From the NCBI GenBank assembly GCA_903813345.2, contig CAIIXF020000007.1, positions 935,730 through 999,729 on the forward strand: a stretch of DNA of 64,000 bases, given 5' to 3'. This document shows, in pieces, positions 25,374-45,936 of the stretch. The position numbers and the translations under genes are program-made. The DNA comes from Owenia fusiformis (lineage: Eukaryota > Annelida > Polychaeta > Sabellida > Oweniidae). The notes under the pieces are model-generated. The model saw only the letters and a program-made list of their open reading frames with translations, was not told the origin of the DNA and made no database searches. The stretch's first letter is position 1. The number at the start of each line of letters is the position of its first letter.

Positions 25374-25959
25374 CACCCCAGTCACATTTCCTACAGCGAC
25401 CGTGCGGTCTATCATTTCTGCGGCCAGTAACATTTCTACGCTCGCCGTGGAATTTCTGCGCTCTCATACTTTTGCAGTCACATTTTCCACGGCAGCCGCA
25501 CGGTGAATTTTAAATTTCTGTTGATAAATAATACTTTTTCATTTTATTTACATCGGGACAATTTATAAATGTTATTCATAGTGCTAGGATGTAATATCAA
25601 ATGAAAAGTGATCGTGAAACATTGACAAACTAGAGATCGAACGATCTAAGATTGCAAGCAATCTTACGGAGGCCCTATATTCGTTTCTGAACATTCAAAG
25701 GCCAGCCAAAGGTCAAATCTCTAATACAAGGTCATATATGAACTCCAGACAACTTGTAGATGATTTTTAAAAAAGGTTGGTCGAATTAATGCAAGTTGAA
25801 ATTTGACCTTGAAAAATTCCGAAATTTGACCTTTTTTCAGTTTTGAGCTATAATATCTCAAAACTGGAGCCAAATTTTAATAGATAATCAATTGCTAATA
25901 TGTGTAGAACCTTTAGTAGAGGAATATATATTCTGACTTTCATTTCAAAATATTGATTT

Positions 25960-26480
25960 GCAGAGCTGTCAAGTGTCCCGCGAATGGCGGGATTATCCCG
26001 CGAATTTGATCAAAATTAGGCTAATTCGCGTGTCCCGCATTGTCCCGCGAAGTCCCGCAAAATGTGGCTTTGACCTCCGCGAATTTCCGAAATTGTTGCA
26101 ATCCCCTATATTTTGATTATCTTATCTTATATAAGAAGCTAAGTTTTTGCACTTTTGAGGAGTAAAGTTTACCTAATTTTAAGTACCTAGCATGCTGTTG
26201 TTTGGTATCAAAATAAAGGGGAAGGGTTCAACTTTCATTTTAATTACGAAAATAGGGATGTAGGTCACAAATAGTTCCAACGTTGGCCTTTTTACTACCC
26301 GTGTGGCCTTCATCTCAGAACTGAGCAAATGTTAGCAAACGCGAGTTACGATAAATGTACGCTGATATCTAGAAAGGGTTTGTATAAAAAACCGGGTACC
26401 GGGTAGTAAATCCTCCATGCTGGGTTCAAACTTGGTACCCGGTACCCGGTCAAAAAAACGGGTACCCAAAAAACGAAAAA
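25960..26480. repeat. Decayed insertions with TCCCGCGAA and GGTACCCGG strings
   Basis: About 25964-26100 has AGCTGTCAAGTGTCCCGCG and repeated TCCCGCGAA motifs. About 26389-26470 has palindromic GGTACCCGG strings. Both interrupt the M3 body. I could not find the opposite ends. Confidence 0.45.
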
Positions 26481-26497
26481 TACGAATATATAACATA

Positions 26498-28420
26498 ACT
26501 AGATTTGTGAAATTGAACAAGTTCAATTTAAGACTCCAGATTTATTTGACCTAGATAGATCAGTAAAGAGCTGAGTAAGTAACTGAGTAATTAGCTGAGT
26601 AAGTACCTTAGTAGTAGTTGAGTAAGTAGCTGAGTAAGTAACTGGGTAAAAAGCTGAGTAGGTAGCTGAGTAAGTACCTGAGTTAGTAGCTGAGTAAGTT
26701 GCTAAGTAAGTAATAACTAATAAAGTAATTGAGTAAGTAGTCAAATAAGTAGCTGAGTAGGTAGAGAGGTAAAGTAGGGTATGCAGGAATTTTTGAAAGT
26801 TTATTTGATCAATCTGCATTGTGAATACTGGCAAGTGCGAATTTCAAACTTCAAAATTGCGTAGAAAAAAACCGGGGGTCGGATTGCAATTTTAATTTCA
26901 GATCCGGATTCCTGAGGAAATTCTACCCCTAATTCATAACTCATACGTTAAATTTGGAGAACTTTTTATTTTGACCTACATTTCGATCACCATATCTCAA
27001 AAGTGGGTCAAAAAACTTCTTGACGGCAAAAAGTTAACATTATTAGCACACTCTTTGCTACATGTATACAAAATTTCGAAGAATATCATTGAAGTGTAGT
27101 GTCCGAATTGCGAAAATAAGAAAAAACTATGAATTTGACCTAGATTTTGAGCTAGGTATTTTGGTGTCCAAATTTTGAAGGAAAGTAGCTTTTGAGGTCC
27201 CCTTCTTCTATGGGCTTTCATTATGTTTAGCTGTACTCATTCTATATCTTGTATTTTTACACTTCAAAAAATTATTCAGTCCCATTGATTTAACATGGGG
27301 CACCAAATTTAGCGATTTTTGAGCTTTCAAAACGTCATAACTTCTGAACAAGATGTCGAATCGAAATTTAGTTTGCAGATTCGGATTCCTGACAAAATTC
27401 TACCCCTAATTCATAACTCATACGTTAAATTTAGAATTTTTTCTTTTGACCTACTTTTTGGACACGCCATAACTTCCGAACCGGAAGTCGGATCGAAATT
27501 TGGTTTGCAGATTCAGATTCCTGACAAAATTCTACCCCTAATTCATAACTCATAAGTTAAATTTGAAGAATTTTTTATTTTGACCTACTTTTGGGACACC
27601 ATATCTCAAAAGTGGGTCAAAATACTTCCTGACGGCAAAAGGCTAACACTATTAGCACACTCTTGGCTACATGTATACACAATTTCGAATAATATAATTA
27701 AAGTGTAGTGTCAGAATCGCAAAAATAAGGAAAAACTTTGAATTTGACCTAGATTTTGACCTAGGCATTTTTGTGTCCAAATTTTTAAGCTAGATGGCTT
27801 TTGAGGTCCCCTTCTTTTAAAAGCTTCCATTATATTTAGCTGAACTCAGTCTATATTTCGTATTTTTCACTTCAAAAAAATCTTTTTTCCCATTGACTTA
27901 ACATGGGCACCAAATTTAGCGATTTTTGAGCTTTCAAAACGCCATAACTTCCGTACTAGATGTCGGATCGAAATTTGGTTTGCAGATTCAGGTTCCTGAG
28001 ATCATTCTACACTTACTTCATACCTCACATGCTGAATTTGGAGAATTTTTTGTTCTGACCTACTTTCCGGACGTCATATCTCAAAATCGGTACGAGTAAT
28101 CAAAAATCTGATGGCATATCTTTGAAAGAGCTGTTTCTAAGCTACATGATGAAAAAAAGACAAAGTTGTTTCAATAAATAACGACGAAGATAATTGAAAG
28201 AATGTTGAAAATGCAAGATTTGACCTAGTTCTTGACCTTTGACCTAGATAAAAATTTGACCTAATTTCCCATCATCCCAGATACATTCCCTAGTTAATCA
28301 TGTAAGCAGCTTAAAGTAAGCTCTTCTAGTTGGTGAGAAATCTGGGAAGGAGGAAGAAGAATAATAATAATAAAGAAAACTGGCAAAAGCAATAGACTCC
28401 AGATTTTCATCTGGAGTCTA
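26498..28420 (+). mobile_element. Complete Helentron-like (HINE/DINE-type) element, type M1 reference copy
   Basis: The 5' end reads ACTAGATTTGTG, then the palindrome AAATTGAACAAGTTCAATTT, then motif M1 AGACTCCAGAT. The 3' end is a hairpin at 28393-28420 made of TAGACTCCAGAT and its inverse ATCTGGAGTCTA, followed by AATTA. The core has a tandem repeat of about 12 bp, AGCTGAGTAAGT (26569-26764), then modules with CATAACTTCCGAACC-like and TATCTCAAAAGTGGGTCAAA strings. A 5' subterminal motif repeated in a 3' hairpin plus a tandem-repeat core is the layout described for DINE-1/HINE elements of the Helentron group. Assignment is by structure only; there is no Rep/helicase here. Confidence 0.7.
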
Positions 28421-30565
28421 ATTAGATTATGAGAAAACGTGTAAGATTTGTTTTGAATTTGCAAAAATGTATGTAACATGATTCAAAATTGAGCTAGAAA
28501 TTTTGACCTTTTTCAGTTTTTGAGCTCTTATATCTCAAAACTGGTGCAAAATTTTAATAGATAATCAAATGCTAATATGTGGAGAAAAAGTGGAGGAATA
28601 TATATTTAGACTTTCATTAAACTATATTGATTTGTAGTAACAAATTTTGAGAAACTTGGAAAACACAGTTTGTGATTTAATTCAATGACCTTGACCCTTG
28701 ACCTTGCAAAATTTACTTTTTTGGACCTCTTCGGGTCTTTTGTGATTAAATGCACTTAAATTTAATCCAGAAAATCGATTTGTAAAATCAACTTTTTTGA
28801 CCTTTCGGAGGTCACTGAAGGTCAACAAAATGTCGAGGGTCAAAAGTAAGGTAAGATTTGGAATCCTGAGAACTTGTAGATGAGTTTTAAAAAAAGGTTT
28901 GGTCAATTTAGATCAAGTTGAAATTTGACCTTGAAAATTTTCGAAAATTGACCTTTTTCAGTTTTGGAGCTCTAATATCTTAAAACTGGTGCAACATTTT
29001 AAAAGATAATCAGTTGCCAATATGTGTAGAACCTTTAGAGGAATATATATACAGACTTTCATCAAAAAATATTGATTTGTAGTCACCAATTTTGAGAAAC
29101 TTGGAAAACACAGTTTGTGATTTAATTCAATGACCTTGACCTTTGACCTTGCAAATTTTACTTTTTTGGATCTCTTGAGGTCTTTTGTGATTAAATGCAC
29201 CTAAATTTGAATCCAGAAAATTGATTTGAAAAATCAACTTTTTTGACCTTTCGGAGGTCACTGAAGGTCAACAAAAGGTCAAAGGTCAAAAGTAAGGTAA
29301 GATTTGGAATCCTGAGAATTTGCATATGAGTTTTAAAAAAAAGTTTGGTCAATTTAGATCAAGTTAAAATTTGACCTTGAAAATTTTCGAAATTCGACCT
29401 TTTTCAGTTTTTGAGCTCTGATATCTCAAAACTGGTGCAAAATGTTAATAGATAATCAATTGCTAATATGTGAAGAACCTTTAGATGAATATATATTCAG
29501 TCTTTCATGGAAAAATATTGATTTGTAGTCATAAACTTTGAGAAACTTAGAAAACACAGTTTGTGATCTTGTTTGATAACCTTGAACCTTGACCTTGAAA
29601 ATTTTACTTTTTTAGACCTCAGTATATCTTTTCTGATTGAATTAATTTAAATTTGAATCCAGAAAATTAATTTGAAAAATCAACTTTTTTTGACCTTTCG
29701 AAGGTCACTGAAGGTCAACTAAATGTCATAGGTCAAAACTAAGGTCAGATTTGAGTTCCTGAGATCTTGTAGATGCTTTTTAAAAAAAAGTTTGGTCAAT
29801 TTAGAGCAAGTTGAAATTTGACCTTGAAAAATTTCGAAATTCGACCTTTTTTCAGTTTTTGTGTTCTAATATCTCAAAACTGGAGCAAAATTTTAATAAA
29901 TAGTCAATTGCTAATATGTGGAGAACCTTTAGAGGAATATATATTCTGACTTTCAGTAAAGAAAATTGATTTTTAGTCTCAAATTTTGAGAAACTTAAAA
30001 AACACAGTTTGTGATTTCGTTTGATGACCTTGACCTTTGACCTTGCAAATTTTACTTTTTTGGATCTCTTGGGGTCTTTTGTGATTAAATGCACCTAAAT
30101 TTGAATCCAGAAAATTGATTTAAAAAAATAAACTTTTTTGACCTTTCGGAGGTCACTGAAGGTCGACAAAAGGTCAAAGGTCAGATTTGGAATCCTGAGA
30201 ACTTGTAGATGAGTTTTAAAGAAAAAATTGGTCAATTTGAAGCAAGTTGAAAAAATACCTTTTTTGACCTTTTTTTGACCTCAATATCTCAAAATCTAGG
30301 CAAAATTTCCCTAGACGGCAAAAGGCTTAGACTAATAGAATACTAATATCTATCTGTATGCAAAAATTCAGCCAAAAATATTGAAGTGTAGTGTCAGGAT
30401 TTGAGAAACTTGAAAAAAACTTAGATTTGACCTAGATTTTGACCTTTGACCTTGACCTAGATATGAACTAATTTCCCGACAAGTCCAGCCCAGGTCCCTA
30501 ATAGGACTATATATGAGATAAGTCAAAGCTAGCTGGAAGTTGGAGAAAAAATGCTAAAAAGAATA
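28421..30565 (+). repeat. M3 body: tandem 400-450 bp modules rich in TGACCT
   Basis: The modules recur with starts near 28500, 28950, 29400 and 29850. Each runs through ATATCTCAAAACTGGTGCAA, TAGATAATCAATTGCTAATA, TATATATTCAGACTTTCAT, GAGAAACTTGGAAAACACAG, TGACCTTGACCTTTGACCTT, and GACCTTTCGGAGGTCACTGA. The short minus-strand frames found in several copies are by-products of this repetition, not genes. Confidence 0.85.
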
Positions 30566-33500
30566 ACTAGATTTTGGAAATTGAACGAGTTCAATTTCAG
30601 ACTCCAGATCTAGACTTTTTTTAGCCGAGTCATCCAGAATAAGCCAAGTCATCCAAAATGAACTAAGTCATCAAGAAAAAGAAGGATGGATGGATGGATG
30701 GATGGATGAAAAAGGAAGGAAGGATAGGATAGAATAGGAAGGAACGATAGGATAGAATAGGAAAGAAGGATAGAATAGAATAGGAAGAAGGGATAGAATA
30801 GGAAGGAGAGGAAACGAAGCAAGGGTAGATAGGAAGGATAGGATAGGATCAGAAAGGAAGGATGGATGCATTTTTCAATATTTTCTTCTCTACTCTTGAC
30901 TTTCTATCAGGATACCATCAGATCGATTTTTCTTGAAATTTCAAAACGCCATAACTTCCGAACCGGAAGTCGGATCGAAATTTGATTTGTAGATTCAGAT
31001 TCCTGACAAAATTCTCCCCCTAATTCATAACTCATACGTTAAATTTGGCGAATTTTTATTTTGACCTACTTTTCGGACACTTCGGAACCGGAAGTCGGAT
31101 TGAAATTTGGTTTGTAGATTCGGATTTCTGAGAAAATTCTACTCTTAATTCATAACTCAAACGTTAAATTTGGAGAACTTTTTATTTTGACCTACTTTTC
31201 AGACACCATATCTCAAAAGTGGGTCAAAATACTTTCTGACGGCAAAAGGCTAACGCTATTTATTAGCACACTCTTGGCTACATGTATACACAATTTCGAG
31301 GAATATAATTAAAGTGTAGTGTCAGAATCGCAAAAATAAGGATAAACTATAAATTTGACCTAGATTTTGACCTAGGGATTTTTGTGTCCAAATTTTGAAG
31401 TTAGGTAGCCTTCGAGGTTCCCTTCTTACATAGGCTTTCATTATTTTAAGCTGTACTTAGTCTATATCTCGTATTTTACACTTCAAAAATTTTTTTGTTC
31501 CCATTGACATAACACGGGGCACTAAATTTAGCGATTTTTGAGCTTTCAAAATGTAATAACTTCCGAACCAAAAGTCGGATCGAAATTTGGTTTGCAGATT
31601 GGGATTCCTGAGAAAATTCTATACTTAATTCATAACTCAAATGTTAGATTTGGAGAAATTTATATTTTGACCTACTTTTCGGACACCATATCTCAAAAGT
31701 GGGGCAAAATACTTTCTGACGGCAAAAGGCTAACACTATAAGCACACTCTTGGCTACATGCATACAAAATTTCGAGGAATATAATTAAAGTGTAGTGTCA
31801 GAATCGCAAAAATAAGGATAAACTATGAATTTGACCTAGATTTTGACCTAGGGATTTTTGTGTCCAAATTTTGAAGTTAGGTAGCCTTCGAGGTTCCCTT
31901 CTTTCATAGGCTTTCATTATATTTAGCTGAACTCAGTCTATATTTCGTATTTTTCACTTCAAAAAAATCTTTTTCCCCATTGACTTAACATGGGCACCAA
32001 ATTTAGCGATTTTTGAGCTTTCAAAACGCCATAACTTCCGAACCGGAAGTCTGATTCGAATTTGGTTTTCAGATTCGGAATCCTGATAAAATTTCCTATA
32101 AGACCAATATCCTGGACATTTGATTCGGAGAACCTTTTTTTGGACCTCGTTTTCGGACACTGATATCTCGAAATCTGTTTGAGATATCAAAAAACTAAAT
32201 CGACCCTAGGTTTTCTACTTTTTTATAAGGAACACAATGAAAAAAAACCGGATCGAAAATATTGAAGGACGACCGAGAAAATCGAAAAAAGTGACAAAGT
32301 ACTGGATTTGACCTAGTTCTTGACCTTTGACCTAGATAAAAATTTGACCCAATTTCCGAGGAACTAGATTCTGGACCTAAATTGACCAAATGACTGACTT
32401 TACTGAAAACCTTATGGTTATTGAGAAAACTGGTTTAGAATAAGAATAAGAATAAGAACTAGACTTTGGAAATTGAACGAAGTTCAATTTCAGACTCCAG
32501 ATCTAGACTTTTTTAAGCCCAGTCATCTAAAATAAGCCGAGTCATCCAGAATAAGCTGAGTCATCCAGAATAAGATGGATGGATAAAATAGGAAGGTAGG
32601 ATAGGATAGAATGGGAAGGAACGATAGGATAGAATAAGAAAGAAGGATAGGATAGAACAGAATAGGAAGAAAGGATATGATAGGAGAGGATAGGAAGGAT
32701 AGGAAGGAAGGATAGATAGGAAGGATAGGATAGGATAGGATCAGATAGGAAGGATGGATTAATTTTTCAATATTTTCTTCTGTACTCTTGACTTTCTATC
32801 AGGATACCATCAGTTCGATTTTCCGAAATTTCAAAACGGCATAACTTCCGAACTGGAAGTCGGATCGAAATTTGATTTAAGGATTCGGATTCCTGACAAA
32901 ATTCTACCCCTAATTCATAACTCATACGTTAAATTTGGCGAATTTTTATTTTGACCTACTTTTTGGACACGCCATAACTTCGGAACCGGAAGTCGGATCA
33001 AAATTCGGTTTGCAGATTCAGATTTCTGAGAAAATTCTATTATTAATTCATAACTCAAACGTTAAATTTGGAGAACTTTTTATTTTGACCTACTTTTCTT
33101 ACACCATATCTCAAAAGTGGGTCAAAATACTTTCTGACGGCAAAAGGTTAACACTATTAGCACACTCTTGGCTACACGTATACAAAATTTCGAACAATAT
33201 AATTAAAGTGTAGTGTCAGAATCGCAAAAATAAGGAAAAACTTTGAATTTGACCTAGATTTTGACCTAGGCCCTGGACTTGATTTAGACCTAGATTTGAC
33301 TTGGACCTGGACTTGGACCTGGACTTGGATTGAATGAGAAGGAAGAATAGGATATAATAGGAAGGAAGGATAGGAAGGAAGGATAGATAGGAAGGGAGAA
33401 TCATCCAGAATAAGATCATCTAGATAGAAAGGATAGGATAGACCTAGATTTTGATCTAGGTCCTGGACTGGATTTGGACCTAGACTTGACTTGGACAAAA

Positions 33501-34061
33501 CTGGACTTGGACCTGGACTTGACCTTGACTTGGACCTCAAAATGGACTGGACTGGTATTTTTTCAATTTTATTTCACTTTTCTTGACATTCTATGAGGGT
33601 ACCATCAGATCGATTTTTCTCGAACTTTCAAAACGTCATAACTCCTGAACCGGAAGTCGGATTTCAATTCGGTTTTCAGATTCAGAATCCTGAGAAAATT
33701 TCCTATAAGACTAATATCCTGGACATTGGATTCGGAGAACTTTTTTTCGGACCTCGTTTTCGGACACTGATATCTCGAAATCGGTTCGAGATATCAAAAA
33801 ACTAAATCGACCCTAGCTTTCCTACTTTTTTATGAGGAACACAATGAAAAAAACCTGGATCGAAAATACTGAAGGACGACTGAGAAAATCGAAAAAAGTG
33901 ACAAAGTACTGGATTTGACCCAGTTCCTGACCTTTGACCTAGATAAAAATTTGACCCAATTTCCAAACAACTAGATACTGAACCCAAATGAACTATATAA
34001 TGGTCTTTATTGGATACCTTATGGTTAAGGAGAAAACGTGTTTAGAATAATAATAATAATA

Positions 34062-36888
34062 ACTAGATTTTGGAAATTGAACGAAGTTCAATTTCAGACT
34101 CCAGATCTAGACTTTTTTTTAGCCGAGTCATCCAGAATAAGCCGAGTCATCCAGAATAAGCTGAGTCATCTAGAAAGAGATGGATAAATAAAATAGGAAG
34201 GTAGGATAGGATAGAATAGGAAAGAACGATAGGATAGAATAAGAAAGAAGGATAGGATGGAATAGAATAGGAAGAAAGGATAGGATAGGATAGGAAGGAT
34301 AGGAAGGAAAAGATATGAAGGAAGGATAGATAGGAAGGATAGGGTAGGATGAGATAGGAAGGATGGATGAATTTTTCAATATTTTCTTCTCTACTCTTGA
34401 CTTTCTATCAGGATACCATCAGATCGATTTTTCTCGAAATTTCAAAACGCTATCACTTCCGAACCGGAAGTCGGATCGAAATTTGGTTTGCAGATTCGGA
34501 TTTCTGACAAAATTCTACCCCTTATTCATAACTCATACGTTAAATTTGGAGATTTTTTATTTTGACCTACTTTTCGGACACGCCATAACTTCCGAACCGG
34601 AAGTTGGATCGAAATTTGGTTTGCAGATTCGGATTCCTGACAGAATTTTACTCTTATTTCATAACTCAGATATTAAATTTGAAGAACTTTGTATTTTGAC
34701 CTACTTTTCGGACACCATATCTCAAAAGTGGGTCAAAATACTTTCTGACGGCAAAAGGCTAACACTATTAGCATTTTCTTGGCTACATGTATACACAATT
34801 TCAAAGAATATAATTAAAGTGTAGTGTCAGAATCGAAAAAATAAGGAAAACCTATGAATTTGACCTAGATTTTGACCTAGGCATTTCGGTGTCCAAATTT
34901 TGAAGCTAGATGGCTTTTGAGGTCCCCTTCTTTTAAAGGCTTTGATTATATGAAGCTGAACTCAGTCTATATTCCGTATTTTTCACTTCAAAAAAATATT
35001 TTTTCCCATTGACTTAACATGGGCACCAAATTTAGCGATTTTTGAGTTTTCAAAACGCCATAACTTCCGAATCGGAAGTCGGATCGAAATTTCGTTTTCA
35101 GTTTCGGAATCCTGAGAAAATTTCCTATAAGACTAATATCCTGGACATTTGATTTAGAGAACTTTTTTTTGGACCTCGTTTTCGGACACTGATATCTCGA
35201 AATCGGTTTGAGATATCAAAAAACTAAATCGACCCTAGATTTCCTACTTTTTTATAAGGAACACAATGAAAAAAAAACGGATCGAAAATATTGAAGGACG
35301 ACCGAGAAAACCGAAAAAAGTGACAAAGTACTGGATTTGACCTAGTTCTTGACCTTTGACCTAGATAAAAATTTGACCCAATTTCCGAGGAACTAGATAC
35401 TGAACATAAATTGACCAAATGATTGACTTTACTGAAGACCTTATGGTTATTGAGAAAACTTGCTTAGAATAATAAGAATAAGAATAACTAGATTTTGGAA
35501 ATTGAACGAAGTTCAATTTCAGACTCCAGATCTAGACTTTTTTTTAGCCGAGTCATCCAGAATAAGCCGAGTCATCCAGAATAAGCTGAGTCATCTAGAA
35601 AGAGATGGATAAATAAAATAGGAAGGTAGGATAGGATAGAATAAGAAAGAAGGATAGGATGGAATAGAATAGGAAGAAAGGATAGGATAGGATAGGAAGG
35701 ATAGGAAGGAAAAGATATGAAGGAAGGATAGATAGGAAGGATAGGGTAGGATGAGATAGGAAGGATGGATGAATTTTTCAATATTTTCTTCTCTACTCTT
35801 GACTTTCTATCAGGATACCATCAGATCGATTTTTCTCGAAATTTCAAAACGCTATCACTTCCGAACCGGAAGTCGGATCGAAATTTGGTTTGCAGATTCG
35901 GATTTCTGACAAAATTCTACCCCTTATTCATAACTCATACGTTAAATTTGGAGATTTTTTATTTTGACCTACTTTTCGGACACGCCATAACTTCCGAACC
36001 GGAAGTTGGATCGAAATTTGGTTTGCAGATTCGGATTCCTGACAGAATTTTACTCTTATTTCATAACTCAGATATTAAATTTGAAGAACTTTGTATTTTG
36101 ACCTACTTTTCGGACACCATATCTCAAAAGTGGGTCAAAATACTTTCTGACGGCAAAAGGCTAACACTATTAGCATTTTCTTGGCTACATGTATACACAA
36201 TTTCAAAGAATATAATTAAAGTGTAGTGTCAGAATCGAAAAAATAAGGAAAACCTATGAATTTGACCTAGATTTTGACCTAGGCATTTCGGTGTCCAAAT
36301 TTTGAAGCTAGATGGCTTTTGAGGTCCCCTTCTTTTAAAGGCTTTGATTATATGAAGCTGAACTCAGTCTATATTCCGTATTTTTCACTTCAAAAAAATA
36401 TTTTTTCCCATTGACTTAACATGGGCACCAAATTTAGCGATTTTTGAGTTTTCAAAACGCCATAACTTCCGAATCGGAAGTCGGATCGAAATTTCGTTTT
36501 CAGTTTCGGAATCCTGAGAAAATTTCCTATAAGACTAATATCCTGGACATTTGATTTAGAGAACTTTTTTTTGGACCTCGTTTTCGGACACTGATATCTC
36601 GAAATCGGTTTGAGATATCAAAAAACTAAATCGACCCTAGATTTCCTACTTTTTTATAAGGAACACAATGAAAAAAAAACGGATCGAAAATATTGAAGGA
36701 CGACCGAGAAAACCGAAAAAAGTGACAAAGTACTGGATTTGACCTAGTTCTTGACCTTTGACCTAGATAAAAATTTGACCCAATTTCCGAGGAACTAGAT
36801 ACTGAACATAAATTGACCAAATGATTGACTTTACTGAAGACCTTATGGTTATTGAGAAAACTTGCTTAGAATAATAAGAATAAGAATA
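34062..36888 (+). repeat. Two identical consecutive M1 units
   Basis: Unit 34062-35486 and unit 35487-36888 look identical along their length except for a 23-bp deletion in the GGATA-rich part of the second. The next units (36889, 38289) differ at scattered sites. This points to a very recent tandem duplication, or to an assembly artefact. Confidence 0.85.
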
Positions 36889-39800
36889 ACTAGATTTTGG
36901 AAATTGAACGAAGTTCAATTTCAGACTCCAGATCTAGACTTTTTTTTAGCCGAGTCATCCAGAATAAGCCGAGTCATCCAGAATAAGCTGAGTCATCTAG
37001 AAAGAGATGGATAAATAAAATAGGAAGGTAGGATAGGATAGAATAAGAAAGAAGGATAGGATAGAATAGAATAGGAAGAAAGGATAGGATAGGATAGGAT
37101 AGGAAGGAAAAGATATGAAGGAAGGATAGATAGGAAGGATAGGGTAGGATGAGATAGGAAGGATGGATGAATTTTTCAATATTTTCTTCTCTACTCTTGA
37201 CTTTCTATCAGGATACCATCAGATCGATTTTTCTCGAAATTTCAAAACGCTATCACTTCCGAACCGGAAGTCGGATCGAAATTTGGTTTTCAGATTCGGA
37301 TTCCTGACAAAATTCTACCCGTAATTCATAACTCATACGTTAAATTTGGAGATTTTTTATTTTGACCTACTTTTCGGACACGCCATAACTTCCGAACCGG
37401 AAGTCGGATTGAAATTTGGTTTGCAGATTCGGATTCCTGGCAGAATTCTACCCTTAATTCATAACTCATATATTCAATTTGGAGAACTTTTATTTTGACC
37501 TACTTTTCGGACACCATATCTCAAAAGTGGGTCAAAATACTTTCTGACGGCAAAAGGCTAACACTATTAGCATATTCTTGGCTACATGTATACAGAATTT
37601 CGAAGAATATAATTAAAGTGTAGTGTCAGAATCGAAAAAAAAAGGAAAACCTATGAATTTGACCTAGATTTTGACCTAGGCATTTCGGTGTCCAAATTGT
37701 GAAGCTAGATGGCTTTTGAGGTCCCCTTCTTTTAAAGGCTTTGATTACATGAAGCTGAACTCAGTCTATATTCCGTATTTTTCACTTCAAAAAAATATTT
37801 TTTCCCATTGACTTAACATGGGCACCAAATTTAGCGATTTTTGAGTTTTCAAAACGCCATAACTTCCGAACTGGTAGTCAGATCCAAATTTCGTTTTCAG
37901 ATTCGGAATCCTGAGAAAATTTCCTATAAGACTAATATCCTGGACATTTGATTCGGAGAACTTTGTTTTTGACCTCGTTTTCGGACACTGATATCTCGAA
38001 ATCGGTTTGAGATATCAAAAAACTAAATCGAACCTAGGTTTCCTACTTTTTTATAAGGAACACAATGAAAAAAAACCGGATCAAAAATATTGAAGGACGA
38101 CCGAGAAAATCGAAAAAAGTGACAAAGTACTGGATTTGACCTAGTTCTTGACCTTTGACCTAGATAAAAATTTGACCCAATTTCCGAGGAACTAGATTCT
38201 GAACCTAAATTGACCAAATGACTGACTTTACTAAAAACCTTATGGTTATTGAGAAAACTGGTTTAGAATAATAAGAATAAGAATAATAACTAGATTTTGG
38301 AAATTGAACGAAGTTCAATTTCAGACTCCAGATCTAGACTTTTTTTAGCCGAGTCATCCAGAATAAGCCGAGTCATCCAGAATAAGCTGAGTCATCTAGA
38401 AAGAGATGGATAAATAAAATAGGAAGGTAGGATAGGATAGAATAGGAAAGAACGATAGGATAGAATGAGAAAGAAGGATAGGATAGAATAGAATAGGAAG
38501 AAAGGATAGGATAGGATAGGAAGGATAGGAAGGAAAAGATATGAAGGAAGGATAGATAGGAAGGATAGGGTAGGATGAGATAGGAAGGATGGATGAATTT
38601 TTCAATATTTTCTTCTCTACTCTTGACTTTCTATCAGGATACCATCAGATCGATTTTTCTCGAAATTTCAAAACACTATCACTTCCGAACCGGAAGTCGG
38701 ATCGAAATTTGGTTTGCAGATTCGGATTCCTGACAAAATTCTACCCCTAATTCATAACTCATACGTTAAATTTGGAGATTTTTTATTTTGACCTACTTTT
38801 CGGACACGCCATAACTTCCGAACCAGAAGTCGGATCGACATTTGGTTTGCAGATTCAGATTCCTGACAAAATTCTATACTTAATTCATAACTCATATATT
38901 CAATTTGGAGAACTTTTTATTTTGACCTACTTTTCGGACACCATATCTCAAAAGTGGGTCAAAATACTTTCTGACGGCAAAAGGCTAACACTATTAGCAT
39001 ATTCTTAGCTACATGTATACACAATTTCGAAGAATATAATTAAAGTGTAGTGTCAGAATCGAAAAAATAAGGAAAACCTATGAATTTGACCTAGATTTTG
39101 ACCTAGGCATTTTGGTGTTCAAATTGTGAAGCTAGATGGCTTTTGAGGTCCCCTTCTTTTAAAGGCTTTGATTATATGAAGCTGAACTCAGTCTATATTC
39201 CGTATTTTTCACTTCAAAAAAATATTTTTTCCCATTGACTTAACATGGGCACCAAATTTAGCGATTTTTGGGTTTTCAAAACGCCATAACTTCCGAACCG
39301 GAAGTCAGATCCAAATTTCGTTTTCAGATTCGGAATCCTGAGCAAATTTTTTATAAGACTAATATCCTCGACATTTGATTTGGAGAACTTTTTTTTGGAC
39401 CTCGTTTTCGGACACTGATATCTCGAAATCGGTTTGAGATATCAAAAAACTAAATCGACCCTAGGATTCCTACTTTTTTATGAGGAACACAATGAAAAAA
39501 AACCGGATCGAAAATATTGAAGGACGACCGAGAAAATCGAAAAAAGTGACAAAGTACTGGATTTGACCTAGTTCTTGACCTTTGACCTAGATAAAAATTT
39601 GACCCAATTTCCGAGGAACTAGATACTGGACATAAATTGACTGAATAATGATCTTTATTGGAAGCCTTATGGTTATCGAGAAAACTGGGAAAGAATAATA
39701 AGAAAGAATAATAAAGAATAACTAGATTTTGGAAATTGAACGAGTTCAATTTCAGACTCCAGATCTAGACTTTTTTTAGCCGAGTCATCCAGAATAAGCC

Positions 39801-42800
39801 AAGTCATCCAAAATAAGCTAAGTCATCCAGCAAAAGATGGATGGATAGATGGATGAAAAAGGAAGGAAGGATAGGATAGAATAGGAAGGAACGATAGGAT
39901 AGAGTAGGAAAGAAGGATAGAATAGAATAGGAAGAAGGGATAGAATAGGGAATAGGAAGGAGAGGATACGAAGCAATGGTAGATAGGAAGGACAGGATAG
40001 GATCAGAAAGGAAGGATGGATGCATTTTCCAATATTTTCTTCTCTACTCTTGACTTTCTATCAGGATACCATCAGATCGATTTTTCTTGAAATTTCAAAA
40101 CGCCGTGACTTCCGAACCGGAAGTCGGATCGAGATTTGATTAGCAGATTCAGATTTCTGACAGAATTCTACCCCTAATTCATAACTCATACGTTAAATTT
40201 GGCGAATTTTTATTTTGACCTACTTTTCGGACACGCCATAACTTCGGAACCGGAAGTCAAATCGAAATTTGGTTTGCAGATTCGGATTTCTGAGAAAATT
40301 CTATTCTTAATTCATAACTCAAACATTAAATTTGAAGAACTTTTTATTTTGACCTTCTTTTCGGACACCGTATCTCAAAAGTGGGTCAAAATATTTTCTG
40401 ACGGCAAAAGGCTAACGCTATAAGCAAAGTCTTGGCTACATGTATACACAATTTCGAGGAATATAATTAAAGTGTAGTGTCAGAATCGCAAAAATCAGGA
40501 TAAACTATGAATTTGACCTAGATTTTGACCTAGGGATTTTGGTGTCCAAATTTTGAAGTTAGGTAGCCTTCGAGGTTCCCTTCTTTCATAGGCTTTCATT
40601 ATTTTAAGCTGTACTTAGTCTATATCTCGTATTTTACACTTCAAAAAAATCTTTTTTCCCATTGACATAACATGGGGCACCAAATTTAGCGATTTTTGAG
40701 CTTTCAAAATGTCATAACTTCCGAACTGTAAGTCGGATTGAAATTTGGTTTGCAGATTCGGATTCCTGAGAAAATTCTACACTTAGTTCATAACTCACAC
40801 GTTAAATTTGGAGAATTTTTTATTTTGACCTACTTTTCGGACACCATATCTCAAAAGTGGGGCAAAATACTTTCTGACGGCAAAAGGCTTACACTATTAG
40901 TGCACTCTTGGCTACATGTATACAAAATTTCGAAGAATATAATTAATCTGTAGTGTCAGAATAGCTAAAATAAGGAAAAACTTTGAATTTGACCTAGATT
41001 TTGACCTAGGCATTTTGGTGTCCAAATTTTGAAGCTAAATGGCTTTTGAGGTCCCATTCTTTTAAAAGCTTTCATTATATTTAGCTGAACTCAGTCTATA
41101 TTTCGTATTTTTCACTTCAAAAAAATATTTTTTCCCATTGACTTACATGGGCACCAAATTTAGCGATTTTTGAGCTTTCAAAACGCCATAACTTCCGAAC
41201 CGGAAGTCCGATCCAAATTTGGTTTTCAGATTCGGAATCCTGAGGAAATATCCTATAAGACTAATATCCTAGACATTTGATTCGGAGAACTTTTTTTTGG
41301 ACCTCGTTTTCGGACACTGATATCTCGAAATCGGTTTGAGATATCAAAAAACTAAATCGACCCAGATTTCCTACTTTTTTATGATGAACACAATGAAAAA
41401 AACCCGGATCAAAAATATTGAAGGACGACCGAGAAAATTGAAAAAAGTGACAAAGTACTGGATTTGACCTAGTTCTTGATCTTTGACCTAGATAAAAATT
41501 TGACCCAATTTCCAGAGAACTAGATTCTGAACCTAAATTGACTGTATGATTGTCTTAACTGAAGATCTTACGGTTATTGAGGAAACTTGCTTAGAATAAT
41601 AATAATAATAATAACTAGACTTTGGAAATTGAACAAAGTTCAATTTCAGACTCCAGATCTAGACTTTTTTTAGCCGAGTTATCCAGAATAAGCCGAGTCA
41701 TCCAAAATAAGCTGAGTCATCCAGAAAAAGATGGATGGATGGATGGATGGATGAAAAAGGAAGGAAGGATAGGCTAGAATAGGAAGGAACAATAGGATAG
41801 AATAGGAAAGAATAATAGAATAGAATAGGAAGAAGGAATAGAATAGGAAGGATAGGAAGGAGAGGATACGAAGGAAAGGTAGTCGGATCGAAATTTGGTT
41901 TGCAGACTCGGATTCCTGAGAAAATTCTACCCTTAATTCATAACTCATATGTTAAATTTGGAGAATTTTTTATTTTGACCTACTTTTCGGACACCATATC
42001 TCAAAAGTTGGTCGAAATACTTTCTGACGGCGAAAGGCGTACACTATTAGCACACTCTTTCCTACCTGTATACAAAATTTTGAAGCAAATCATTTAAATA
42101 TAGTGTCAGAATCGCAAAAATAAGGAAAAACTATGAATTTGACCTAGATTGTGACCTAGGGATTTTGGTGTCCAAATTTTGAAGTTAGGTAGCCTTTGAG
42201 GTCCCCTTCTTTCATAGGCTTTCATTATTTTAAGCTGTACTTAGTCTATATCTCGAATTTTACACTTCAAAAAAATCGTTTTTCCCATTGACATAACATG
42301 GGGCACCAAATTTAGCGATTTTTGAGCTTTCAAAACGTCATAACTTACGGATCGGGAGTTGGATTGAAATTTGGTATGCAGATTCGGATTCCTGAGAAAA
42401 TTTTAGTCTTAATTCATAACTTATACGTTAAATTTGGAGCAATTTTTATTTTGACCTACTTTTCGGACACCATATCTCAAAAGTGGGTCAAAAAACTTTC
42501 TGACGGCAAAAGGCTAACACTATTAGCACACTCTTGGCTACATGTATACAAAATTTCGAAGAATATAATTAATCTGTAGTGTCAGAATCGCAAAAATAAG
42601 GAAAAACTTTGAATTTGACCTAGATTTTGACCTAGGCATTTTGGTGTCCAAATTTTTATGAAAAGAAGGTTATGAGGTCCCTTTCTTTTATGGGCTTCCA
42701 TTATGTTTAGCTGTACTTAGTCTATATCTCATATTTTACACTTCAAAAAAATATTTTTTCCCATTGAATTAACATGGGGCACCAAATTTAGCGATTTTTG

Positions 42801-43267
42801 AATTTTCAAAACGCCATAACTTCTGAACCGGAAGTCAGATCGAAATTTGGTTTTCAGATTCGGAATCCTGAGAAAATTTCCTATAAGACTGATATCCTGG
42901 ACATTGGATTCGGAGAACTTTTTTTTGGACCTCGTTTTCGGACACTGATATCTCGAAATCGGTTTGAGATACCACAAAAATAAATCAACCCTAGACTTTC
43001 TACTTTTTTATGAGGAACACAATGAAAAAAAACCGGATCAAAAATATTGAAGGACGACCGAGAAAATCGAAAAAAGTGACAAAGTACTGGATTTGACTTA
43101 GTTCTTGACCTTTGACCTAGATAAAAATTTGACCCAATTTCCCACCAACTAGATACTGAACCTAAATCAACTGTATTATGGTACTTACTGGATACCTCAT
43201 AGTTATTGAAAAAACTCCCAAAGAATAATAAGAAGAATAAGAAGAATAAGAATACTGGCAAAAACAA

Positions 43268-43652
43268 TAGACTCCAGATTGACATCTGGAGTCTAATAAG
43301 AAGAAGAAGAAAAAGAATAATAAGAAAACTGACGAAAACAATAGACTCCAGATTTCATCTGGAGTCTAATAATAATAAGAAAACTGACGAAAACAATAGA
43401 CTCCAGATTTCATCTGGAGTCTAATAATAAGAAAACTGACGAAAACAATAGACTCCAGATTTTCAATCTGGAGTCTAATAATAATAAGAATACTGGCAAA
43501 AACAATAGACTCCAGATTGACATCTGGAGTCTAATAAGAAAACTGACGAAAACAATAGACTCCAGATTTCATCTGGAGTCTAATAATAAGAAGAATAAGA
43601 AGAATAAGAAAACTGACGAAAACAATAGACTCCAGATTTCATCTGGAGTCTA
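43268..43652. repeat. Stack of seven 3' terminal hairpins
   Basis: Hairpins with stem TAGACTCCAGAT / ATCTGGAGTCTA and loops of 3-5 bases lie at 43268-43295, 43342-43368, 43397-43423, 43449-43477, 43506-43533, 43556-43582 and 43626-43652. Each is preceded by GAAAACTGACGAAAACAA or ATACTGGCAAAAACAA and followed by AATAA. Each looks like the 3' end of one M1 element. Confidence 0.95.
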
Positions 43653-44398
43653 ATAAATAAATAAACTAGATTGGAGAAATTGAACAAGTTCAATTCAAGA
43701 CTCCAGATTTAGATTGTTTATCTCAAAACCAATTTGAGATCTGATATTAATGAAAGGGTTGAGATTGTTACAATTTGGTGGCAGCGGTGGGATTTTTTTG
43801 AGATTTCAAAAGCCCATAACTTGTGAACCGGAAGTTGGATCTCAATTTTGTTTTCAGATTTGGAATCCTGAGAAAATTTTCTATTAAAACCTTGATTTGA
43901 ACTTCGATATTAATGAGAAATAAAAAAAATATCGGTCCGATTGACATGACGTGGGGATATCATCAAATCATTTTTTCAAAATTTCAAAATGTCTTAACTC
44001 CTGAACCGGGAGTCGGATCACAATTTCGTTTTCAGATTCAGAATCTTGAGACAATTTCCTATTAAATTAATACCAATTTTAATGGATTTGGAACATTTAA
44101 ATAATTCACTTTTTTTTTAAAGTCAAAATTCTCAAAATTCTTTAAAGTTACAATAAAAAAAAATTAGTTCACTTAAAAGCGCTTCTTCTTAGCTACACGA
44201 TGAAAAAGAAATTGAGAAAAAATAATTAACCATAACAAAGATAATTGACAATTTGTAGATTTGACCTAGATTTTGACCTTTGACCTAGATAAAAATTTGA
44301 CCTCATTTCTTAAAAACTAGGTCACATACCCTAACTGACCATGTAATTAGATTTACACCAAATCTTCTAGTTACTGAGAAAACGTGCTAATAAGAATA

Positions 44399-45581
44399 AC
44401 TAGACATTTAAAATCGCCACGGGGGCGATTTCGTAGAATGCCGTTCCTCGCCGCAGCAGCAAATTCGGTGCACAATTGACCTTTTTCAAGGTCACGCAGA
44501 GGTCGAATTCCAAAACCGAAAGCATATTTGATATCATATTTTGCCATATTTTTGAAATTTTGGCACTCAATTTAAAAACCCGTACCCTTATCCTCCCAGA
44601 CGCGCTTTAAAGCGCTGTCGCGTGCCCCCTATATAGATTAGGAAAACAAAGTGTTAAACTTGTTATTTCTTGATACCATTTAGGCAGTCATAATATACAG
44701 TAATCTGCTCTATATGGCTCCTTGAACAGGTAAAACAAGAAATAAGTTTTACATCATTTTACGGTAAAGGTCAAAGGTCAAGGTCAAAATGTTGACCTAA
44801 TTTACTCTAGTTTAGTACAGTGTAATACAATGGTACCAATTTCGAATCAATTTGAGCAATTTTAGCAATTTAACCTTTTTGACCTTTTCAAGGTCACCCG
44901 GAGGTCAAATTCCAAAACCACAAGCATATTTAGAATCAGGGACATCCATACTTCATACTTGCAAAGAATTGGAATGAAAATCCTAGTTTTCAACTTTGAG
45001 GTCATATGAAGTTCAATGTCAAAGGTCAAGGTCAAAATGGTGACCTAATTTACTCTATCCGAGTACAGTGTAATACAATGGTACCAATTTGGAATCAATT
45101 TGAGCGATTTTGATTTTTGAACTTGTTGACCTTTTCAAGGTCACTCAGAGGTCGGATTCCAAAACCGAAAGCATATTTGGAATCAGGGGCTTCTATTCTT
45201 TATATCTGCTCAGAATTGGGATCGGATACACAGTTTTCAAATTTTGCCCCCCTGAATGGGGCACCCAATTTTAAAACCCGGAATATATGTGAAATGGCAA
45301 TTGTGAGGGATGGCATATGCAAATTTTGGGTAAAAAATAAAAATGGTTACTCCTTGTACGTGCAAAAATGTAAAAATTTGCGATTTGACCTTGGCTAATT
45401 AGGGAGGGGCTAATTAGAAAAATGAAGGCATTTCCCTGTAGCCCAGGAACATGTCAAGGTTGATGGTATATGCTAATTAGCTGACATGTCGGTGTGTGCG
45501 GAGAAATCTTGCGTGGAATAATAAAAATAAGAAAAAGGCGAAAACTATAGAATGCCGTTTCTTCGAAACACGGCATTCTAA
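44399..45581 (+). mobile_element. Hairpin-ended element with a different terminal motif (type M2)
   Basis: The 5' end reads ACTAGACATTT, then the palindrome AAATCGCCACGGGGGCGATTT, then TAGAATGCCGTT. The 3' end (45549-45581) is a hairpin of TAGAATGCCGT and its inverse ACGGCATTCTA, followed by ATAAGAA. So the 12-base motif at the 5' end is reused to build the 3' stem, as in M1, but the sequence is unrelated. The body has AGGTCA tandem sites at 44768-44786 and 45023-45034, and two repeated modules with GAATCAATTTGAGC. The 93-residue frame inside shows no known family. Confidence 0.75.
44768..44786 (+). promoter_or_regulatory. Three AGGTCA hexamers in DR1 plus DR0 order
   Basis: The sequence reads AGGTCA-A-AGGTCA-AGGTCA. 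A DR1 of AGGTCA is the consensus site for RXR, HNF4 and COUP-TF type nuclear receptors. Here it belongs to a transposon body; binding is untested. Confidence 0.5.
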
Positions 45582-45936
45582 TAAGAATAATAAGAATACA
45601 GGCAAAAGCAATAGACTCCAGATTTTCAATCTGGAGTCTAATAAATAAATAAAGAAGAATAACTACAAAAATGATAGGAGGCCCCTTGAAGGGCCTCCTA
45701 ATACTGATTCAATCTTGTTGAGCCAGTTGATTTATACGGGGACCTCAGAAATGAACAAATATTATAACTACGAGTTATAATTTCTACGGCGACCATGCGG
45801 CCTGTAAAAACTGGATACGCCGTACGGAGGCCGCAAGGCGAGCGTAGTTTTCCTACGCTCGCCGCAGAAATACACTGATTTAATTGATCTGCGGTCGACG
45901 CACGGCCTCCGTACGACAAATGTGACTGGGGTGTTA

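Follow-up and report, generated by a model that had tools for sequence, protein, structure and literature searches.

Nested same-strand insertion of HINE-like elements beside their own and sister-family hairpins in the Owenia fusiformis genome

Helentrons are rolling-circle transposons with an endonuclease-carrying protein. Published HINEs, the non-autonomous Helentrons, carry a palindromic subTIR close to the 5′ end, and their second subTIR and palindrome are located 38–60 bp and 8–35 bp, respectively, from the 3′ end (PMC4067079, PMC7492417). For FoHeli (Helitron2) of Fusarium oxysporum, self-insertion was proposed as the source of multiple termini, with one nested case and a model with two termini of one kind (PMC5148889). 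In the SaTar/microsatellite-associated MULEs of guayule, rice, and pineapple, insertion into microsatellites builds arrays of elements (PMC5907723, PMC8449440). The tandem Helitrons of plant centromeres (Xiong, Dooner and Du 2016, cited in PMC5148889) are reported to be queues of one kind of end and are reportedly attributed to rolling-circle replication that leaves only one opposite end.

Here, we describe a window of 64,000 nucleotides (C7:935730-999729; the whole stretch of DNA that was analyzed) and the 498 Mb genome of O. fusiformis (525 contigs) searched along with it. The system shares with HINE/DINE-1 elements and Helentrons (PMC4067079; Cg_HINE of the Pacific oyster, PMC7492417) the palindromic subTIR, the adjoining microsatellite, the body, the second subTIR with its palindrome, and the T-rich target, as well as an autonomous protein that combines Rep, PIF1 helicase, and a C-terminal endonuclease. 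It differs in that elements here commonly insert recursively into their own microsatellite strip, which is not described in the sections of those papers that bear on layout. FoHeli offers few cases with short duplicated ends, and neither a fixed site nor stacks of opposite ends read as brackets appear in the relevant sections. The SaTar and MULE arrays are explicitly non-nested and consist of MULEs with terminal inverted repeats, whereas the target strip here lies inside the element, so that the arrays become nested; the SaTar type, in which no element interrupts another, was rejected with the reconstruction of 45 interrupted host pairs. Unlike in the plant centromere arrays, the opposite ends are present as a stack. 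A sequence-only reading of the window had considered self-targeted nesting of a Helentron-like element not to be a standard description. This was corrected in part, in that Helitron self-insertion itself was already published (PMC5148889); no description of recursive same-site nesting of Helentrons was found in the titles and abstract beginnings of the literature searched, mostly without subscription papers.

Element layout and relation to Helentrons

Three families were named by their arms: family A by AGACTCCAGAT, family B by AGAATGCCG, and family C by GGAGGCCC. In the orientation in which the window is read, each family A "5′ end" consists of AACTAGA, a palindrome (GAAATTGAAC..GTTCAATTTC), and the arm AGACTCCAGAT. 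The family A hairpin is made of the same arm followed by TAATAA, and strips of (AAT/AAG)n separate stacked hairpins. Families B and C, found outside window positions 30566 to 43652, follow the same plan. In reverse complement, the layout reads ATT, subTIR hairpin, spacer, (TTATTC/TTATT)n, body, subTIR, palindrome, and TCTAGTT. The subTIR hairpin is directly behind ATT, and at the other end the subTIR starts 34 bp from AACTAG and the palindrome spans 12–34. This is the published HINE layout, with the second subTIR just below the published range of 38–60 bp. The microsatellite beside the 5′ subTIR, a HINE feature (PMC7492417), is present as the (AAT/AAG)n strip before each hairpin, and the T-rich target of Helentrons and HINEs is met by AAT^AA flanks (the caret marks the junction). 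As part of the overall explanation given below, it is very probable that the elements are HINEs. The Helentron-like identity assigned by the sequence-only reading thus held, but its 5′ and 3′ were swapped relative to published usage: its 3′ hairpin is the HINE 5′ end (subTIR hairpin and microsatellite), and its 5′ end is the HINE 3′ end. A canonical Helitron (Helitron1) was rejected, as the 5′ TC end is absent and the ends are AACTAGA and, reverse-complemented, ATTAGACTCC.

The genome contains 58 matches to the Rep domain (Helitron_like_N), many of them in open frames of ~3000 aa. Many of the 58 are on short contigs rather than long ones, for example C13 (6) and C515 (4), which gives the impression that Helentrons accumulate in poorly placed parts of the assembly. 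An ORF of 3143 aa on C1 comprises OTU, DUF6570, Rep, PIF1, and endonuclease domains; Exo_endo_phos (E 2.6e-10) matches its last part, that is, an apurinic-like endonuclease fused at the C-terminus. The Rep motif of Helentrons is RG-S-PHxH, in which S replaces L (PMC4067079), and the C1 ORF has RGSPHVH (YEFQMRGSPHVH, region of residue 1899). The ORF is situated between a family C end (C1:21095503) and a family C hairpin (C1:21130645), each with ~1.3 kb of family C body. These two bodies are direct repeats in the C1:21095503-21130645 copy, and exchange between them could possibly yield the short 1.4-kb family C element. That the 33 kb between the C1 family C ends form one element was judged from three copies only. 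A Helentron copy on C6 has the same left terminus, which is continuous with sequence outside family C; its right family C terminus was not found within the fetched piece. The C500 copy agrees with family C termini by distances only. Of the Rep matches on C1, C2, and C3, that on C1 alone was seen to be flanked by catalogued family C termini, so that the other Helentrons probably carry ends unlike those of family C. No autonomous partner with family A termini (GACTCCAGAT) was found in a search limited to C1.

Bracket order in the window and in the genome

The outermost bracket of the window is a family C element on the forward strand, as are all window features given here (25628-45704; end 25628-25677, hairpin 45675-45700). 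Its parts at 25628-25963 and 29264-30569 are 97.9% and 88.9% identical, respectively, to units of a family C nest. A single uninterrupted family A element (26497-28424, span 1924 bp) lies within the bracket. Around it, at ~25964-28498, the family C element is interrupted by GTCCCGCGAA-like text that has no match to the family C units compared and in which the single family A copy is embedded; the limits of this repeat are only approximate. The family A nest follows (30565-43656). Eight ends (ACTAGA...AGACTCCAGAT) are queued at 30566 (U1), 32458 (U2), 34062 (U3), 35487 (U4), 36889 (U5), 38289 (U6), 39721 (U7), and 41614 (U8) with no TAGACTCCAGAT hairpin between them, and seven such hairpins (H1–H7) are then stacked in (AAT/AAG)n strips (43220-43652), at 43268, 43342, 43397, 43449, 43506, 43556, and 43626, H7 reaching 43652. 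The pre-hairpin text starts anew at each hairpin, as GAAAACTGACGAAAAC in five of the seven and GAATACTGGCAAAAAC in the other two. U8 and H1 delimit the innermost uninterrupted copy (41613-43299, span 1683 bp), which has the end subtype AAA-TC and the text AATACTGGCAAAAAC. A ninth family A end at 43665 is the start of the next element (43664-45644, span 1977 bp), which shares its strip of the family C host with the nest and houses in its own strip a family B element (44398-45584; end 44399, hairpin 45548-45580). The order of the window is accordingly C( A( ) A(x8 )x7 A( B( ) ) )C, opening with family C at 25628 and closing at 45700. The three families are nested without a single crossing bracket, and the sole imbalance is one surplus A end. 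From bracket order, with U3 and U4 counted once, the inferred pairing is H1 with U8, H2 with U7, H3 with U6, H4 with U5, H5 with U4/U3, H6 with U2, and H7 with U1.

The surplus end is accounted for by the duplicate bodies U3 and U4 (34062-36888). Their first 1350 bases are 100.0% identical (ungapped columns), and a short stretch is absent from one of them; the next most similar body pairs in the nest reach 97.0–97.4%. A second nest with one surplus end (C1:21194500-21202051) contains a neighboring pair 99.9% identical. As the duplicated unit comes without a hairpin, exchange between the flanking strips seems, by inference, a simpler origin than a circle copied twice. Recent duplication does not explain the surplus at C1:19836581-19852933 (8 ends, 4 hairpins), where no near-identical neighbors were found and the best pair, which is not adjacent, is 96.5% identical.

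Exact patterns gave 2811 "5′ ends" and 2537 hairpins in the whole genome and none with the reversed controls; the pattern of the window is therefore not due to chance. Hairpin–hairpin junctions, with 10–40 bases between the fixed parts, numbered 1263 genome-wide (control, 0). On C1:0-24.64 Mb, where stacks were not preselected, 96 ends and 90 hairpins formed 41 same-strand clusters. Four further ends and 11 further hairpins above C1:24.64 Mb were excluded from the cluster counts because the two sets examined extend to different places. One of the 90 hairpins is degenerate and was added by hand with an approximate coordinate; the order was unaffected, and a sequence parse gave the same order. 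Seventeen clusters had at least three events. Brackets were exactly balanced in 7 of them, including one of 8/8 (C1:3414057-3430532) and one of 24/24 (C1:22590005-22643085), and none of the 17 was balanced when read backwards. The other 10 were unbalanced, with a hairpin surplus in 7 and an end surplus in 3. The numbers of ends and hairpins per multi-event cluster were correlated (Spearman 0.73, n = 17; 0.67 without the largest cluster). The probability of a balanced order alone is 0.04 for the 24/24 and 0.11 for the 8/8 cluster; such an order is only mildly unlikely by chance, and the labels described below consequently weigh more.

A relaxed search, covering one end class only, revealed one shortened start in the 24/24 nest (palindrome and arm lost), changing the count to 25 versus 24. 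The best identity of its body is 95.8%, hence it is no recent duplicate. It is positioned immediately before a three-fold inner nest that closes at C1:22622789, after which unrelated sequence follows instead of a family A strip. The hairpin of the shortened copy was thus likely lost, at the place that the brackets predict, and the 24/24 nest is imperfect. In two copies, at the C1:16248839 locus and in the C1:22629386 region, the shortened end has two CTAGA texts without the palindrome and arm that would stand between them, perhaps lost by exchange between those texts. The segment C1:22612753-22622816 comprises ten kb without family A ends or hairpins inside the 53-kb nest. At C1:16248839, a count of 1 versus 2 became 2 versus 2 after a shortened start was found, and at C1:7765428-7776709, two ends were gained for three hairpins once more sequence was examined. 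An early impression that many stacks lack ends was dropped; it was partly due to an end pattern that missed the ACATGTAAATTG subtype and partly to sequence pieces that were too short. Sister families take part elsewhere as well: family C forms a self-nest at C1:20765731-20771334 (4 ends, 4 hairpins), and a family B element resides within a family A strip at C1:3426872-3428504.

Mirrored labels and the site of insertion

Bracket pairing was evaluated with labels carried by the two ends of an element. Ends were split into two classes by the letters preceding the arm, and each hairpin was labeled by the text before it. In 38 uninterrupted copies, every type of pre-hairpin text goes with one end class only, although six of these 11 types are each represented by a single copy; contiguous pairs >3.2 kb were excluded from this table and kept among the 43 cases tested. 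With last-in-first-out pairing, the labels fit in 41 of 43 interrupted-host cases, compared with 32.0 (sd 2.56, 20000 draws, P 0.00015) for random valid pairing and 29 of 43, below random, for first-in-first-out pairing. Among the 45 interrupted host pairs reconstructed, 38 of the 40 that could be classified agree, and the text of the remaining 5 was unclassified. Labels based on loop letters had earlier given 60/68 for last-in-first-out pairing versus 46.9 (sd 3.2) for random and 43 for first-in-first-out pairing; they were replaced by the pre-hairpin text because the loop TTTTCAA was found with both end classes. At C1:3943321-3950246, for instance, GAA loops belong to the hairpins that close the outer and the inner end, both of the ACATG subtype; between them, an end of the other class has a TTC loop in its closing hairpin. 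The window itself is a weak test of mirrored labels because all eight queued ends belong to one class.

The junctions are AAT^AA-like in nested and in outermost or single copies alike. On the strand read here, 22 of 25 outermost copies and 54 of 61 nested ones carry, within the AAT^AA flank, a T three positions ahead of the end text. Insertions concentrate, on one strand, in the (AAT/AAG)n strip by the hairpin or at the outer edge of the hairpin. In the fetched loci, 55 of 56 hairpin–hairpin gaps measured 18–42 bp, and the 56th is filled by a family B element. In the unselected C1 set, 46 of 47 such gaps were short, the long one being that same family B case, and 11 of 13 steps from a hairpin to an end were abutments. 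Neighboring pairs within 5 kb were on the same strand in 142 cases and on opposite strands in none. Uninterrupted copies (38 copies <3.2 kb) have on average 4.87 AATAA motifs within the body and 4.05 within the 60 bp preceding the hairpin, so the bodies are not short of such motifs. No family A insertion into a family A body was found among the 47 hairpin–hairpin steps of the unselected set.

Most of what the sequence-only reading had claimed was borne out. The eight ends and seven hairpins, the restart of the pre-hairpin text, and the attribution of the unmatched end to the duplicate at 34062/35487 all held. Repeated self-insertion at the same site is supported by bracket order, mirrored labels, non-crossing families, and the occurrence of both single copies and nests of other depth elsewhere in the genome, though 10 of 17 clusters are unbalanced. 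Random pairing of hairpins with bodies, which would have refuted it, was not seen. For the expected mirrored order of divergence, terminal branches from a limited sample gave no clear signal, with no difference between hosts and inserts (91 bodies of about 2800 copies; among 42 same-group host–insert pairs, the host branch was longer in 15, shorter in 22, and tied in 5; P 0.65).

Proposed mechanism and alternative explanations

Nested same-strand insertion at one kind of site, in three sister families, is shown by these sequences, and insertion of HINEs beside their own or sister terminal hairpins very probably explains the bracket loci. The evidence for nesting comes from one assembly, without reads, a second individual, or empty sites. 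The sequences show copies placed, on one strand, in the AATAA-rich strip or at the outer hairpin edge of an older element that belongs to their own or a sister family. Each insertion shifts the hairpin of the host outward and adds a new strip and hairpin inside. The fresh strip lets the next insertion nest again, and the locus comes to be read as brackets. By inference, the Helentron protein may prefer the T-rich complement (TTATT) of the strip, which would make every copy a landing pad for the next, and a body may occasionally be duplicated between flanking strips, leaving surplus ends such as that of U3/U4.

The alternative that survives best is a general preference for (AAT)n-like microsatellites without self-targeting, in which the elements' own strips would merely be the commonest tracts. 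AAT^AA junctions are also found for single copies in other DNA, and microsatellite-targeted MULEs provide a precedent (PMC5907723). On the other hand, many left flanks of the outermost copies examined are AT-rich yet not long microsatellites, and, despite the AATAA motifs of the bodies, the 47 hairpin–hairpin steps included no family A insertion into a family A body. Such targeting would alter the cause and not the nesting. Free microsatellites were not counted, so this alternative remains viable, though we lean slightly against it.

Rolling-circle concatemers, which the sequence-only reading had left as an alternative, would supply several bodies per transposition event, with truncated inner copies, beside an independently grown array of hairpins. 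Tandem Helitrons with truncated inner copies are known (PMC7492417), plant centromere arrays are cited in PMC5148889, and ends outnumber hairpins at some loci. However, a single nest can mix subtypes and even families, which pair in mirrored fashion, the first-in-first-out fit is worse than random, neighbors in the window other than U3/U4 differ by at least 2.6%, and the hairpins are not single, their number matching that of the ends in 7 of 17 clusters. We consider this origin very improbable. The same applies to the view of the hairpin stack as an ordinary minisatellite that grew by slippage or unequal exchange, independently of the number of ends. In its favor, hairpins exceed exact ends in 7 of 17 clusters, and the 6 kb fetched at C1:656900-663400 contain three hairpins but lack an intact end. 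Against it, the counts of ends and hairpins correlate, adjacent stacked hairpins are often unlike in preceding text and loop, the labels obey bracket order, and some deficits of ends disappeared with more sequence or shortened ends (C1:7765428-7776709, C1:16248839). An assembly artefact, conceivable as repetitive loci are prone to misassembly and no reads were used, is all but ruled out by the recurrence of the pattern, with different contents and mirrored labels, at many places on long contigs.

Nested insertion of HINEs has consequences for annotation and for the study of transposition. If these loci were annotated as tandem arrays or as minisatellites of hairpins, individual elements whose parts lie far from each other would be overlooked; one such element spans about 53 kb here. 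A bolder reading, which is slightly less likely than not and rests on an inferred preference, is that in this lineage Helentrons bring along a landing pad that reproduces itself, namely a T-rich strip inside the element that is favored by their own machinery. New copies would then be steered in fixed orientation into older ones, a nest would be a sink that grows with its own size, and nests of this kind may have gone unrecognized among published tandem Helitron arrays whose inner copies are truncated. To our knowledge, little is known about how Helentrons choose their targets. Since bracket order gives the order of insertion, the nests naturally document many insertions at a single kind of site, and target preference, the orientation rule, and the order of transposition become testable from sequence.
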